DNA of 33,372 nt from Saprospiraceae bacterium (GTDB lineage Bacteria > Bacteroidota > Bacteroidia > Chitinophagales > Saprospiraceae). Under the pieces are notes generated by a model. It was not told where the DNA came from, made no database searches, and worked only from the letters and a program-made list of their open reading frames with translations. Within the stretch, counting starts at the first letter, position 1. Each line of letters starts with the position of its first letter. Of the stretch, positions 10,240 to 27,903 are shown piece by piece. The stretch covers positions 1 to 33,372 of the forward strand of contig JALHMA010000018.1 of assembly GCA_022844265.1 (NCBI GenBank), written 5' to 3'. Both the position numbers and the translations under genes were made by a program.

Positions 10240-10417
10240 GGGGTTGTGTCAAAAGTCTAAAGCGAAAAGAAATGTTTTTTCGCACCAAATTATAGTTGCC
10301 AAAAGCAATGTGAAAATTTGACAACTTTTTAAAAGTTGTCAAATTTAGTGCCCAACCAAAACTTTATTTGGTATTATTTGGCCAGGTTTTCAAACACCTG
10401 ACTTTTGACACAACCCC
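10240..10417. repeat. Family II palindromic element, copy 1 (178 bp)
   Basis: Perfect 18-bp terminal inverted repeats, GGGGTTGTGTCAAAAGTC (10240-10257) and its complement (10400-10417). The centre is a 33-bp palindrome at 10314-10346 (16-bp arms around one base). The outer 76 left and 71 right bases differ from copy 2 (24864-25373) at only one base each, yet the cores differ completely. No reading frame of note. It lies between the esterase and carboxylesterase genes. Confidence 0.9.
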
Positions 10418-21759: not shown

Positions 21760-24700
21760 ATGAAATCCATTTATTTGACTTTTTTCTTTATCGGATGCTA
21801 CCTTCCTGTATTGTTGGCCCAGTCTGAAACAACGCAGCTCGCCCTGGAATTCACTGCGTTATTCAAAAAAAAAGATTACCCGAATGCTATCAAAACAGGG
21901 GAAAAATGGAAATCCTCTATGTATCAGACAGGTATCGCCAAAGCAGATTCGGCCCGTGTTGCCCGGCGTATTATGGACCTGGCGAGTTGCTACAAGTCCA
22001 CTTTGCAATTCCGTAATTCTGAAACTGTTTTACAGGAGGCGCTTGTAATTATGCCTTCCGATTCAGTTGATTATGACGCTATTAAGTCGGGGCTTGGAAG
22101 CATTAAAACATCGCTGGGAAAATACCATGAAGCCGATTCCATCCTTCAAGATGCGCTGTTATCCTTTAAAAAACATCGCCTGGATAAAGGAAGGGGTTAT
22201 AACGGCTGCATCCAAAACCTGGCAGATTTGCGTTTCAACCAGGGGTTGGTACAGGAATCGTATGCTTTGTACCAGGAAGCGCTTGCGCATTGTAATACCA
22301 ATAAACTGGGCGAAGGACCACTTCTTGCCCGGATATACAGCGGCCTGTATCAAGTATCTGATGCGCAGGGCAATTACTCACAAGCCGAAAAATGGCTTGA
22401 AAAATCATTCCACATTATTTCACAATTCTACCCGCACGACGGCGAAGTAGTCCTCGGCAGACAAAGGCAGTACGCTATATTGCTCATGAAAAAAGGGGAA
22501 CTGCAAAGGGCGGAACCTTTTTTGAATGATTTGATAAAACTGATTGAAAAAAAACGAGGTACCAACACGCTCGAATATGCCAGGGCCTTGTGCGTGATGA
22601 CCTGTATAGATCAGCAACTGGGCAAAACAAATGAAGCCTTGCATCTGACTACCCTGCAAGACCCTATTTTTACCAAAAACTTAGGTGGAGCACATTTTGA
22701 AACCATAGAAAACCGAACAAACCGCATCACCCTGTTGCTCGATTCGGGAAAAAAATCAGAAGCAAGAATACTGGCCCAAGCCTTGGTGGATACGCTGAAG
22801 TCCAGCGGGAATTATACAGAGATGCGGATGGCAACTTTTTATAATCTACTGGCACAATGCACGGAAAATGCCGACAGCTCGCTCGCACTACGGGAAAAAG
22901 CGTTTATAATAGTTCAAACATCAAGCGGACAGGCAGATGGAGGGAACAATGCAGATCCCGGTCTTTTTTTGGCAGCGGATTATCTGAAATCAGGAAGACT
23001 GGAGGATGCCCAACGAATACTCGCCTTGTTCGATGGCTTTGAATCGAAGGCCGGTTCAAAAAATAGTCAATTCTTAAAATTGCTGTCTCACCGGGCGCAA
23101 CTGCATCTGCTTCAAGGCAATACAACACAGGCTTTGCAGGATTATACACGCCTCGTACATACCCGCCGGGATTTAATCGTCGGCGACCTGCTCCTACTCA
23201 ACGATTACCAGCGCCTTGACCGCTTCAACCAGCTGAAGGGTATGAATAACTGGATGCTCACACAATGCCGGAATAAGGACATACAACAAGCAGGGTTTAT
23301 ATCATTAGCACTGGATTTTCAACTTTTTACCAAATCACTGCTCCTTTCTACATCTCAAAAAATCCGGGAGCATATTCAGACGGATACGTCGCTTACGCCC
23401 ATTTTTTCAGCCTGGACAGACACCCGCGAACGCCTGGCCTGGTGCTACACGCAACCCAAAGCAAAACTCGAAACACAAAATATCAGTATTGCAGCGCTTG
23501 AAACCCGCGCCGACTCTTTGGAAACAGTCATTTCCAGAAATAGCATCGCCTGGGCTACTGAAAACCGGCGCAAACCCTTTGCCTGGACAGACGTGCGCGA
23601 CCAACTCCAACCCGGTGAAGCCGCACTCGAAATCGCCCGCTTTCAGGAATCTCACCTCGAACCCTCCGATTCCTTGCGGTATGCAGTGTTCATTATACGT
23701 CCTGAAATGCGCGAACGCCCCACTCTTGTTTTCCTGCCGGATGCGGAGCGCCTCGATCAGGTTATGCTTGAAAAATACCTCGCTGAATGCGCTGTACCGG
23801 GTGGAAAAGGCCAAACCGGCCAGTTATACGAGGCTTTCTGGAAAAAACTGGAACCTTTCCTGACTGGTATTTCCCGGCTTTATGTTTCTGCCGACGGCGC
23901 ATTTTTTAAAATCAATTTAGGGGCTATCCAGTTGCCTGGCGGACAATACGTTGCCGACCGCTATGATGTACGCCATGTTTTTTCCCTGAAGGACATCAAT
24001 ACAAAAAATGATGCGCAGAAGGCTGAAAGCCTTGCCGGTAAAACGGCTTTTTTGGCAGGAAATCCAACATTTTTACTCAAAAAAGACGGCGAATCTGCAG
24101 TAGCAACCCTGCGCGCTGTTTCCGAAACATCCGATTCCCTGATGTGGATCAGCCCTTTCAAAAGCATTTTGCGCAATGCAGACGACGTGCGGGGCATCAA
24201 CCTTTCAGCTTTGCCCGGCAGCGAACAGGAAGTACAGGAGTTGAATGCACTGCTGCTTAAAAAAGGCTGGCAGACAACCCTCGTTACAGGTCTGACGGCC
24301 AACGAGGACACCCTGAAATCGCTGAAAAATCCCACCGTTTTGCATTTGGCAACACATGGTTATTTCCTGTCTAATGTGCGCAGCGGCGCTGCCGGATTGT
24401 CGCGCCCGGTGCTGGAAAGCAACCCGATGCTGCGCTCTATGGTATTTTTTGCAGGCGCGCAAAACACCCTGAATCAACAACCTGTGGGCAACGAAGACGG
24501 TATCCTGACCGCTTATGAGGCGCAAAATCTGCAACTCGAAGGCACCGAATTGGTCGTGCTCTCTGCCTGCCAAACCGCCCAGGGGAAAATCCAGAATGGC
24601 GAAGGTGTATATGGCCTTCAGCGGGCCTTGCGCATCGCCGGAGCACAGGCTGTGCTGCTTTCTCTCTGGGATGTGGACGACAAAGTAGGGCGCGAATTCA

Positions 24701-24828
24701 TGACCATATTTTATGAAAAATGGCTGGGCGGCGCGAGCAAGGCAGAGGCCTTTCGGGCCACCCAGTTAGCTGTGAAAAAGAAGCATCCGAAGCCATTTTA
24801 CTGGGCGGGATTTGTTTTTATGGAGTAA
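21760..24828 (+). CDS. Exported TPR-CHAT protein (caspase-like fold)
   Basis: A 1022-residue protein with a signal peptide (MKSIYLTFFFIGCYLPVLLA then QSE). Residues about 30-480 are helical TPR-type repeats (for example SYALYQEALAHCN and AEKWLEKSFHI). A helical linker follows (about 480-610). The C-terminal CHAT domain (about 690-1022) has the dyad: His866 in HLATHGYF and Cys937 in VVLSACQTAQG, and the family endings GVYGLQRALRIAGAQAVLLS, SLWDVDD and FYWAGFVFME. Most characterised CHAT proteases (for example in type III CRISPR) are cytoplasmic; the leader places this one in the periplasm or outside. With a sigma factor and a membrane protein upstream it may act in stress signalling. Confidence 0.88.
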   Translation: MKSIYLTFFFIGCYLPVLLAQSETTQLALEFTALFKKKDYPNAIKTGEKWKSSMYQTGIAKADSARVARRIMDLASCYKSTLQFRNSETVLQEALVIMPSDSVDYDAIKSGLGSIKTSLGKYHEADSILQDALLSFKKHRLDKGRGYNGCIQNLADLRFNQGLVQESYALYQEALAHCNTNKLGEGPLLARIYSGLYQVSDAQGNYSQAEKWLEKSFHIISQFYPHDGEVVLGRQRQYAILLMKKGELQRAEPFLNDLIKLIEKKRGTNTLEYARALCVMTCIDQQLGKTNEALHLTTLQDPIFTKNLGGAHFETIENRTNRITLLLDSGKKSEARILAQALVDTLKSSGNYTEMRMATFYNLLAQCTENADSSLALREKAFIIVQTSSGQADGGNNADPGLFLAADYLKSGRLEDAQRILALFDGFESKAGSKNSQFLKLLSHRAQLHLLQGNTTQALQDYTRLVHTRRDLIVGDLLLLNDYQRLDRFNQLKGMNNWMLTQCRNKDIQQAGFISLALDFQLFTKSLLLSTSQKIREHIQTDTSLTPIFSAWTDTRERLAWCYTQPKAKLETQNISIAALETRADSLETVISRNSIAWATENRRKPFAWTDVRDQLQPGEAALEIARFQESHLEPSDSLRYAVFIIRPEMRERPTLVFLPDAERLDQVMLEKYLAECAVPGGKGQTGQLYEAFWKKLEPFLTGISRLYVSADGAFFKINLGAIQLPGGQYVADRYDVRHVFSLKDINTKNDAQKAESLAGKTAFLAGNPTFLLKKDGESAVATLRAVSETSDSLMWISPFKSILRNADDVRGINLSALPGSEQEVQELNALLLKKGWQTTLVTGLTANEDTLKSLKNPTVLHLATHGYFLSNVRSGAAGLSRPVLESNPMLRSMVFFAGAQNTLNQQPVGNEDGILTAYEAQNLQLEGTELVVLSACQTAQGKIQNGEGVYGLQRALRIAGAQAVLLSLWDVDDKVGREFMTIFYEKWLGGASKAEAFRATQLAVKKKHPKPFYWAGFVFME

Positions 24829-24863
24829 AGTTCATTTTCGATGTTTGGTTTTTTGGGCGCGTT

Positions 24864-25373
24864 GGGGTTGTGTCAAAAGTCTAAAGCGAAAAGAAATGTT
24901 TTTTCGCGCCAAATTATAGTTGCCAAAAGCAATGTGAAACATGAGTCATCCCGAATTTATAGATAAAGGGGTCTACGGGCAAACGCATCAAATCTCGGCA
25001 AACAGTAGATGATTTAAGATTTAAGATTACATGATTTAAGATTTAAGATTGTGATGTACGATGTTTGATTTGGTGATAGGGCAAAATCTGCTGTAATCTG
25101 ATATTTTGCGAATTGTTATCACGATTGATTCCTTCTTTCAGGCAAAACCCAGGCATTCTGATGAAATCAAAAATCTTAAATCATGTAATCGGGAATCTAA
25201 AATCATTTAAATGGGGTATTTCGCGATTAAACTTCTGAACTTTGATGCGTTTGACCTGCCCCGTAGACCCCTTTATCTATAAAATTCGGGATGACTCATG
25301 TTAGTGCCCGACCAAAACTTTATTTGGTATTATTTGGCCAGGTTTTCAAACACCTGACTTTTGACACAACCCC
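24864..25373. repeat. Family II palindromic element, copy 2 (510 bp, alternate core)
   Basis: The same 18-bp perfect ends and 76/71-base flanks as copy 1, each with one mismatch. In place of the 33-bp palindrome it holds a 363-base core (about 24940-25302) beginning CATGAGTCATCCCG and ending CGGGATGACTCATG. Confidence 0.92.
24938..25302. repeat. Inner inverted repeat inside family II copy 2
   Basis: Arms 24938-24992 and 25241-25302 match closely, with an extra T and a six-base insertion in the right arm. Inside, GATTACATGATTTAAGATT at 25025-25043 is complemented at 25172-25190, with weaker pairing extending from it. The remaining ~130 bases between show nothing recognisable. Confidence 0.85.
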
Positions 25374-25401
25374 AACGCGCCCAAAAAACCAAACACTAAA
25401 C

Positions 25402-27903
25402 CTACGGTTTCGGAGCCAGCGTAAACCAATTCCACCCCAAATCGTCGGCCCAGAATCCATCCCGGATAGCACCGTCTTCATCGATCCAGAAAAACTCCAT
25501 TGTATTCGATACACGCGCTGTGGCGGCAATGCCGCTGTTCTTTTTAGCACTTCCTTCCGGAGCCACCCGATAGCCTTTCCATTGGCCGCTCTGATACCGG
25601 TATCGCCCCTCAATGGAACCCCTGGGGCCTACATACCACAGCTCCCTTCCGTCGGAAACGCGGCTGACGGCATCTATGCCGCTTTCCGTGGATGCGCTGT
25701 TGTCCGGAGCCAATTGGTAACGTGCCCAATTACCCGACAACCAGCTAGCGGCATTCACAGCTCCGTTCTTTCCAATCCACCATACTTCCATCGCATCCGG
25801 AATACGCGATACGGCGGTCAAACCACCTGTTACGGAAGCGGAACCCACCGGCTCCAGTCGATACAGCGTCCAGTTGCCTGACTGCCAGAATGCCCCTTGT
25901 ACGGAACCCTCGGGTCCGATCCACCAGAGCTCCGTGACGTCAGATTTCCGGCAAACGGCGGAAATCCCGCCATTCTTGGACGCGCTGTGGCTCGGCGACA
26001 GGGTGTAACGCGTCCAATTACCATTCTGCCAGAAAGCGCCCTGCACCGATTCATCGGGCGCCACCCACCATATCTCGGTGTAATCGCGCGTTCTGCAAAC
26101 GGCGGTGATTTTACTCCTCCGCGAAGCGCTGTTGTCAGGCGCGAGTTGGTACGGTTTCCAGCCTTGTCCTTCAATAAAGTAAGCGGCCTGTATGGAGCCG
26201 TTTGATCCGACCCACCAGACCTCCATCATGTTCGGACGGCGGCTTACGGAGGCGATCCCGCCCTCGATGGAAGCGCTTCCGGGGCCGGCCAGTTGATACC
26301 GCAACCAGAATTGGTCGGTATGCCAATAAGCGGCCTGCACGGAGCCATTTTCTTCTATCCACCAGGTCTCCATGGTTTCCGGGGAGCGAGATACTGCGGT
26401 AATGCTTTTTGCAGCCTTGGTCTTTCCGATCAGGTCGATGTCGCCGCCGCAGGGGTCACGGTTTATTTCACTATAGAAGGCAGCAACGCCGCTGATGTCG
26501 CTGGCGGTCATGAAGTTTTTGGGGCCCATGCATGGATCGCAGGCGGTAAAGTTGCCGGCTGCGTCTTTACATCGGATCGTGATGTCTCGTAGGTCGGGTG
26601 CAAGCACTTTCCCGAAAGCCCTTTCAGAATAATGCATGATGGAACAAAAATCGTAATCGCCTGTGATCACACCCGGTTCGATCTCAAAATTGTGTTTCGA
26701 GTCGCTTTGGATATTATCTTCCACAATTTCGATCCACTTACCCCGGTCTTCCCGGCTTTGCTCATGGTACACACCTATGGCGTGGAGCAATTCGTGCATA
26801 ATGACACCCTTCGAGGTGCCTTTGGCAAGCGTCAGGGTCTGTTCACCTCCCCGCCTGCCCATAGGCGACATACCTCCCGCACCCTTGGGTAAATCCCCTT
26901 CGGTATCAACTTTTATCCGGATGAAGTCCTCCTGGTCGGTACGGATGACAAAGCACACTTCCAGATCCTTGTTTAAGGCATCCAATGCATCCTCCACCGT
27001 TTTCTGCATGTTTGCATCATAAATGTTGCGGTCGACAGTAACGGGTACTATTCCGTTCGGCCAACGGTCATCGCGGTCGTCGACGCCCAGCGACCGGGCC
27101 CTCGGAAAGTCGTCGCCCACGATGATATCGCCATTCAGAATGTAGTAATGACCTACCTTTTGCACCCAGTAATCCTTTGCGTAATTTGAAAACGGCAATT
27201 TCAGGTTCATTTTGATGTAACCATTCGGTGCGGGCGGTTCGGGATCGGGCGCCCCTTTCCATTCAATGGTACCCGCTTTGTCATAATTGCTGTACACGTA
27301 ACATTCGACCGGCGTCCGGCGGTTTTTCAGTTTCACCGTACAGCGAATGCCCTTGCTGGAGAGCGGATCCTCGTAATCGACCTTTTCCGTCCGGGCAAGT
27401 ATACTGTTGGGCGCGTCCAGTTTGATATTGGTAATATTCGTAATGTCGCTGACTTTAAAAGTTTGCAAACCTTTCAGTGCATCCCAGGAGTTTTTATCGT
27501 CCGAAAAATTTCTGTATGTACCGACAGGTAAAAAACGCAATTCGAATACGTGGTTTTGGGTCGTGATCGGTGCTTCGTACACTACCGGATTCGGCGCACA
27601 GACGCCGTAATAGTCGTACACCCATTTTTCATTTCCCCAAATCACCCGCACGGAAGCGGAGTCTGGATAATAAAAAACGGTAAAGGAAACGGTGCCCGGC
27701 TTATCTACAAAAGTGTAACAGGTGGTCGACAGGCTGCCGAACGCAGCGATCGCCTTCATTTCACCGGAAATACAGGTATCGTTGGCGCCGCGTACCAGTC
27801 TTTGTACTGCTTCGAGCAAACTGTTTGCACAAGGGCTGACAGCCTGTTGGGCGCTTAAAGAAAAACAGCACAACAAGCAAAGGGGAACAAGGAATTTTTT
27901 CAT
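25402..27903 (-). CDS. Astacin (M12A) metalloprotease with seven-repeat beta-propeller
   Basis: An 833-residue secreted protein (signal peptide ending LSAQ). Residues about 20-270 are not assigned. The astacin catalytic domain (about 285-485) has the zinc site HELLHAIGVYHE with His370 and the Met-turn SIMHYSERAF. Residues 500-833 are seven repeats of about 48 residues, each with an AVSR strand, a MEVWWVG strand and a SVQGAFW strand; seven copies suggest a closed seven-bladed propeller similar to bacterial PLL-type fucose-binding lectins. The propeller probably targets the protease to glycans. No T9SS tail is visible after the last blade. A decayed gene lies 28 bases upstream. Confidence 0.88.
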   Translation of the reverse strand: MKKFLVPLCLLCCFSLSAQQAVSPCANSLLEAVQRLVRGANDTCISGEMKAIAAFGSLSTTCYTFVDKPGTVSFTVFYYPDSASVRVIWGNEKWVYDYYGVCAPNPVVYEAPITTQNHVFELRFLPVGTYRNFSDDKNSWDALKGLQTFKVSDITNITNIKLDAPNSILARTEKVDYEDPLSSKGIRCTVKLKNRRTPVECYVYSNYDKAGTIEWKGAPDPEPPAPNGYIKMNLKLPFSNYAKDYWVQKVGHYYILNGDIIVGDDFPRARSLGVDDRDDRWPNGIVPVTVDRNIYDANMQKTVEDALDALNKDLEVCFVIRTDQEDFIRIKVDTEGDLPKGAGGMSPMGRRGGEQTLTLAKGTSKGVIMHELLHAIGVYHEQSREDRGKWIEIVEDNIQSDSKHNFEIEPGVITGDYDFCSIMHYSERAFGKVLAPDLRDITIRCKDAAGNFTACDPCMGPKNFMTASDISGVAAFYSEINRDPCGGDIDLIGKTKAAKSITAVSRSPETMETWWIEENGSVQAAYWHTDQFWLRYQLAGPGSASIEGGIASVSRRPNMMEVWWVGSNGSIQAAYFIEGQGWKPYQLAPDNSASRRSKITAVCRTRDYTEIWWVAPDESVQGAFWQNGNWTRYTLSPSHSASKNGGISAVCRKSDVTELWWIGPEGSVQGAFWQSGNWTLYRLEPVGSASVTGGLTAVSRIPDAMEVWWIGKNGAVNAASWLSGNWARYQLAPDNSASTESGIDAVSRVSDGRELWYVGPRGSIEGRYRYQSGQWKGYRVAPEGSAKKNSGIAATARVSNTMEFFWIDEDGAIRDGFWADDLGWNWFTLAPKP
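25405..26406 (-). repeat. Seven in-frame tandem repeats coding propeller blades
   Basis: Seven units of 48-49 codons (the last 43), starting at residues 500, 549, 598, 646, 694, 742 and 791. Conserved positions are A-V-S/C-R, E-x-W-W-x-G, G-S-V/I-x-x-A/G and the ending L-A-P-x-x-S-A-S. They are similar but not identical in DNA, so they are old duplications. Confidence 0.9.

Follow-up and report, generated by a model that had tools for sequence, protein, structure and literature searches.

The window analysed here, a 33,372-nucleotide stretch of DNA from a Saprospiraceae bacterium, contains a nested inverted repeat of 554 nt (24842-25395) between two convergent genes. Our analysis confirmed that this block is real: its arms pair as listed below, and as single-stranded DNA it folded at −158.6 kcal/mol, whereas 100 dinucleotide-shuffled sequences averaged −59.1 and none equalled the block (z −20.9). 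The first-pass annotation had counted four levels, all of which are present; since an extra layer with GGGCAAACGCATCAAA ends (24977-25256) lies between its third and fourth levels, the block has at least five. The genes, layers, and arm pairs are as follows.

21760-24828, forward strand: convergent gene, encoding a TPR-CHAT protein.
25402-27903, reverse strand: convergent gene, encoding an astacin-like protease.
24842-24863, forward strand: layer 1, left arm, TGTTTGGTTTTTTGGGCGCGTT, with a perfect inverted partner at 25374-25395.
25374-25395, reverse strand: layer 1, right arm, inverted partner of the left arm.
24864-25373, forward strand: layer 2, family IIa miniature element with ends GGGGTTGTGTCAAAAG; copies in its own genome and full-length insertion sequences (ISs) were found.
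24940-25300, forward strand: layer 3, 361-bp miniature element of an IS4-like IS, with ends CATGAGTCATCCCGAATTT.
24977-25256, forward strand: layer 4, element with GGGCAAACGCATCAAA ends; separate copies occur elsewhere.
25006-25209, forward strand: layer 5, inner hairpin with TGATTTAAGATTTAAGATTACATG arms.
24842-24881/25356-25395: arm pair, 40 nt, 100% identity (the 22-nt outer arms plus 18-nt family II ends).
24938-24958/25282-25302: arm pair, 21 nt, 100%.
24956-24979/25260-25283: arm pair, 24 nt, 100%.
24977-24992/25241-25256: arm pair, 16 nt, 94%.
25006-25050/25165-25209: arm pair, 45 nt, 84%.
10240-10417, forward strand: 178-bp family IIa copy, the second in the window, lacking layer 3.
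10316-10344, forward strand: central hairpin of that copy, 29 bp, ATTTGACAACTTTTTAAAAGTTGTCAAAT; absent between 24939 and 25301.

The outermost pair is perfectly complementary over 40 nt, although the two ends of family II copies elsewhere are often unlike each other; a recent origin, or palindrome correction during replication, may explain this. As the first-pass annotation had noted, the window appears to encode no transposase: none of the 12 window proteins scanned, the larger ones, matched a transposase family in Pfam. In the bacterium's own genome (G000; 6.05 Mb in 561 contigs), 129 matches to the block were found, spread over different parts of it, and every layer, or a recognisable relative, occurs separately elsewhere in the genome or the genus. 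The reading of the block as a fixed unit was therefore rejected, and the proposed serial insertion of nonautonomous elements was supported. Among the matches listed, which were to the CHAT gene or to repeats, no orthologous empty site for the block was seen.

Layer 2 belongs to a repeat family, family II, whose ends GGGGTTGTGTCAAAAGTC occur 44 times in forward and 43 times in reverse orientation in the own genome (up to 3 mismatches). Two-ended copies there are mostly 168 to 179 bp long and fall into three subfamilies, which have their ends in common and differ in their central hairpins; in the block, layers 3 to 5 occupy the place of the 29-bp central hairpin of layer 2. The copy at 10240-10417, flanked by an imperfect inverted repeat, is a form with fewer layers of the kind that the first-pass annotation had suggested looking for. 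Full-length elements with GGGGTTGTGTCAAAAG on both sides were found in two relatives (G021, 1,863 bp; G063, 1,866 bp), and both encode an IS1182-family transposase; the transposase at L084, in G021, scored 370.9 bits against NF033551, for which the cutoff is 270. Of 41 genomes, own included, 3 had transposases of this family above the cutoff, and in the third (G031, L146) no such pair of ends was seen. In the assembled own genome none exceeded the cutoff (best match, 19.5 bits), perhaps as a result of the many contigs that end inside repeats. With full-length elements that combine matching ends and a transposase of the family, the sequences identify layer 2 as a miniature element of an IS1182-family IS. 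No orthologous empty site was seen for eight family II sites in relatives either: among the matches listed, none outside the source genomes spanned both flanks. A palindrome, GTTTACGAAACTT..AAGTTTCGTAAAC, recurs across many genomes of the genus (L347, L350, L351, and others), and one relative carries a 33-bp minimal family II form (L099, G022:C329) with nearly abutting ends and AAACATC/GATGTTT flanks that resembles REP elements.

Ends of layer 3 were found 28 times in forward and 22 times in reverse orientation in the own genome (up to 3 mismatches), where complete elements measure 51 to 392 bp; those of relatives measure 33 to 477 bp. The first 16 nt recur exactly in 17 of 40 genomes, own included, and a scan of named genomes for the ends returned at least 118 stretches. 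Full-length ISs with these ends occur in Lewinella cohaerens (1,442 bp), Spirosoma luteum (1,429 bp), two Flectobacillus species (1,447 and 1,462 bp), a Bacteroidota metagenome-assembled genome (1,459 bp), Aureispira (1,448 bp), and Pontibacter (1,453 bp), and tblastn detected the transposase in all seven. Five of the proteins, without L298 and L299, were aligned. All five carry the Y(2)R(3)E(6)K signature unchanged (Y349, R352, E356, and K363), and with D129 and D231 as the presumed aspartates, the D129-D231-E356 triad, with 101 and 124 residues between, fits the spacing D(60-110)D(100-150)E. The closest solved structure by sequence was the Tn5 transposase (phmmer, E = 4e-4). The nearest NCBIfam models for four of the transposases were those of IS4, with 43.5 to 58.5 bits, under every IS4 cutoff (115 to 250). 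As the enzyme has the IS4 signature and DDE spacing and its elements lack the target duplication, as described below, we call it IS4-like, working like IS1272. The first-pass annotation had suggested a search for IS200/IS605-like, RAYT, or other transposases; IS200/IS605 and RAYT sources were set aside because the full-length elements found with matching ends encode DDE transposases, which for layer 2 are of the IS1182 family and for layer 3 are IS4-like. Likewise, the DDE enzymes found with matching ends and the terminal inverted repeats of the elements speak against membership in the Y1 (HUH) REP-type class, which has no terminal inverted repeats.

The own genome retains traces of the autonomous layer 3 element. 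At L039, the 3′ end of such an IS encodes the last 36 transposase residues, 69% identical to the C terminus of the L241 transposase, and this stretch ends in NSG inside the terminal repeat. Several contigs (C162, C495, C275, C108, and others) stop shortly after a layer 3 end, and autonomous copies are thus probably missing from the draft. A search of 42 genomes of the genus with the 5′ IS end of L031 gave partial hits of 50 to 61 nt in three relatives, and no transposase was among the listed open reading frames of those loci. Hairpins of 33 to 35 bp with nearly abutting layer 3 ends (L131, L134, L135, L137, and L246) resemble REP elements. The 19-nt layer 3 end is also present in contigs that we take to be from Chloroflexota (L222, L258, L263, L275, L289, and L290); one of these cases is a 1,858-bp element of Dictyobacter vulcani, which contains a stretch related to the transposase (42% over 173 residues).

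The junctions between layers 2 and 3 are exact. Plain family IIa copies read GTGAAA, ATTTGACAACTTTTTAAAAGTTGTCAAAT, TTAGTG, and the block reads GTGAAA, layer 3, TTAGTG. Comparison of the two sequences indicates that layer 3 exactly replaced the 29-bp hairpin of layer 2 and did not slip into its center. The same exchange was found at both junctions with a different layer 3 element at a second family IIa copy of the own genome (L016), at one junction each of two family IIc copies that lie at contig ends (L031 and L039), at both junctions of two copies in G030 (L091 and L092), and, with an extra C, at a single junction of L093. Each of the 29 layer 3 sites of the own genome (ends with up to 2 mismatches) was read individually; 4 lie inside family II hairpins, against roughly 0.006 for an even spread of sites across the genome, calculated from 45 copies of 29 nt each.

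We looked for the flanks of eight layer 3 sites of G008 in G006. At three of the eight, the place of the G008 layer 3 is taken in G006 by another hairpin, and the lower stem is kept: a 59-nt hairpin versus a 146-bp element (L132/L317), a hairpin versus a 137-bp element (L130/L318), and a hairpin versus a 19-nt half element, with the lower stem TTGGGCAA in both genomes (L125/L316). At L128/L320, an asymmetric 19 bp was replaced. A minimal 35-bp form is present in both genomes at L129 and L126, the latter matched on its right side only, and L124 has a layer 3 element in G008 and G006 alike. For L127, which is without a right end, no clear counterpart was found in G006. The change at these sites presumably ran from hairpin to layer 3. 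Where sibling or orthologous sequence is comparable, the tip of the hairpin is missing, which indicates that the element replaced the tip and that the remaining lower stem forms the flanking arms. The earlier proposal that the targets are hairpins is supported.

Target duplications were lacking around both kinds of element. Allowing 1 mismatch, no direct repeat of 9 to 12 bp flanked any of 72 layer 3 elements, which therefore do not show the ~10-bp duplication of IS4, and one of the 72 had an 8-bp repeat; none of 43 family II elements had a direct repeat of 8 to 12 bp, in agreement with the first-pass annotation and with the absence of duplication that characterizes IS1272-type elements. Such duplications are detectable in these data when present, as the G006 copy of the L124 site (L323, 1681-1831) has a further insert flanked by 9-bp direct repeats, TAGAAGACT, which start 142 bp apart.

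Inverted matches between the two flanks were more extensive than expected. For family II, the value was 7.02 versus 5.35 for shuffled partners (44 sites; 0 of 10000 shuffles), 6.67 versus 5.33 without the block (43 sites; 0 of 10000), and the own genome alone also gave 0 of 10000 shuffles (33 sites); without the three best sites, the signal shrank to 5.96 versus 5.34 (41 sites; 19 of 10000). Layer 3 sites of named genomes gave 6.84 versus 5.52 (47 sites kept and 1 dropped; 0 of 20000), and the signal at genus loci was weak (143 of 10000 shuffles), with 1 of 33 sites at the 99th percentile of controls. The flank sets hold some related or overlapping pairs (e.g., L131/L134, and L136 twice), the set of 44 family II and 33 genus layer 3 sites includes loose pairs such as L134 2459-2524, and the named-genome and genus layer 3 sets share at least two sites (L236 = L143 and L305 = L130). 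Long arms were rare, the 99th percentile of controls being reached by 6 of 44 family II sites and 6 of 47 named-genome layer 3 sites; this scarcity agrees with, but does not prove, loss of the entire stem-loop at the majority of sites. The clearest flanking-arm case for layer 3 is L111, where a 205-bp element lies inside a layer 1-type hairpin with 39 matching arm nucleotides (40 nt were examined; the match is offset by one base).

The outer arms themselves gave short BLAST matches (86 to 90% over 29 to 35 nt) to a family of long-stem hairpin repeats with 98 matches in the own genome, both strands together, and by analogy they are probably the remaining lower stem of such a hairpin. In the fetched loci of this type, the GGGCGC/GCGCCC arms were 57 to 58 nt apart in 17 of 31 rows, which include some copies more than once, and they never abutted, the smallest spacing being 34 nt. 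L043 runs further inward from GGGCGC-GTT and AAC-GCGCCC, and the arms of the block stop at GTT and AAC. These observations bear on the history that the first-pass annotation had favored, namely, plain insertion at the TT/AA center of intact palindromes with the tip kept. Arms ending at 24863 and 25374 would indeed join as a perfect 44-bp palindrome with no extra bases. However, arms of layer 1-type copies never abut, so that this palindrome probably never existed, and the tip is gone both for layer 3 in layer 2 and at the three G008/G006 pairs. We therefore regard plain insertion as quite unlikely; the layer 2-layer 3 junctions contradict it directly, and for layer 1, loss of the tip upon entry of family II is, by analogy, the likely alternative to insertion at the center.

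Layer 4 has separate copies in the own genome (L009) and elsewhere (L086, L165, and L310), as well as a degenerate one (L147), and L009 and L086 contain layer 5-like arms too. Hairpins with layer 5-like arms also occur away from the other layers (L022, L023, L026, L028, and L088).

We consider it highly probable that the block is the product of successive transpositions, by two unrelated DDE families, that each replaced a stem-loop. A genomic long-stem hairpin, layer 1, would first have lain between the two convergent genes. A miniature element mobilized by an IS1182 transposase would then have replaced its tip, leaving the 22-nt arms as the leftover lower stem, and an IS4-like transposase would in turn have swapped the 29-bp central hairpin of layer 2 for a miniature element with CATGAGTCATCCCG ends. 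Layers 4 and 5, repeated palindromic elements themselves, lie within layer 3, and their own arrival may likewise have been by replacement. Following the stem-loop-replacement model published for IS1272 (PMC5678879 and PMC4923244), the target palindrome would extrude as a hairpin or cruciform, and the transposase would join the 3′ ends of the element at the base of the stem or close to it, with loss of the stem-loop. Such joining would leave no target duplication, and the leftover lower stem would become the flanking inverted repeat. As the elements carry or form hairpins, insertion would recreate a target, which makes nesting possible.

Two further explanations were considered. Replication slippage, or hairpin cleavage of the SbcCD type followed by repair with another palindrome, would give the transposases no part in the choice of target, and palindrome-correcting repair may account for the long arms being perfectly identical; however, the junctions coincide with layer 3 element ends at L001, L016, L031, L039, L091, and L092, and autonomous elements with the same ends are known for both families, which makes this account very unlikely. 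Also very unlikely is a composite assembled once and then moved or copied as a unit, with the nesting the outcome of one ancestral accident and of recombination between repeats sharing hairpin flanks. In its favor, family II and layer 3 are combined at two sites of G030 (L091 and L092), and a 477-bp layer 3 composite has two differently flanked copies in G021 (L141 and L142), the latter suggesting that composites move as units. However, the layers are also found apart, and the nested layer 3 elements of the own genome differ, as do their hosts (IIa for L001 and L016; IIc for L031 and L039). That one kind of host hairpin holds varying inner elements already speaks against a single origin.

Stem-loop replacement has precedents. 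IS1272 and TnSha1, both of the IS1182 family, target hairpins, part or all of which are deleted, without duplication (PMC5678879 and PMC4923244). Layer 2 resembles them in its derivation from an IS1182-family transposase lineage, its terminal inverted repeats, and its lack of target duplication; the layer 1-type hairpins and the inverted flanks lend indirect support to loss of the target hairpin by layer 2 as well. Unlike IS1272 and TnSha1, the Saprospiraceae elements are miniature and carry central hairpins of their own, which are themselves targets, and the nesting seen here is not described for those two elements in the available parts of PMC5678879 and PMC4923244. The IS4 family is defined by the YREK signature, DDE spacing, and ~10-bp duplications (PMC2266710). 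The full-length layer 3 IS is like the IS4 subgroups IS231 and ISH8 of that account in its Y(2)R(3)E(6)K signature, its DDE spacing, its ends starting with CAT, and its length of 1.43 to 1.46 kb; it differs from them in that it lacks the 10-bp duplication, replaces hairpins, and has NCBIfam scores below the cutoffs. REP palindromes also receive IS insertions, including those of ISRm22, an IS4-family member (PMC1525189), and layer 3, as an IS4-like element choosing palindromic repeats, is similar to ISRm22. Unlike layer 3, ISRm22-type insertions go into REP sequence, and loss of a hairpin is not described in the available text (PMC1525189). A limited literature search turned up no account of an IS4-like element replacing hairpins, of replacement in nested form, or of nested palindromes of miniature inverted-repeat transposable element, IS, and hairpin.

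On balance, we favor the view that an IS4-like DDE IS replaces hairpins independently of the IS1182 family; this IS is widespread in Bacteroidota, and some contigs taken as Chloroflexota bear its ends. If it does replace hairpins, at least two transposase lineages would have arrived at structure-guided hairpin replacement, which would then not be peculiar to one family, and an exception would be needed to the 10-bp duplication by which IS4 is defined. Since the target is set by structure and the outcome, a lost hairpin without duplication, is readable from sequence, the idea is directly testable. The miniature hairpin-bearing elements of both lineages would be each other's targets and so build multilayer palindromes. 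This would offer a simple origin for the long multilayer palindromes between bacterial genes, in which each hairpin-bearing element becomes the target of the next.
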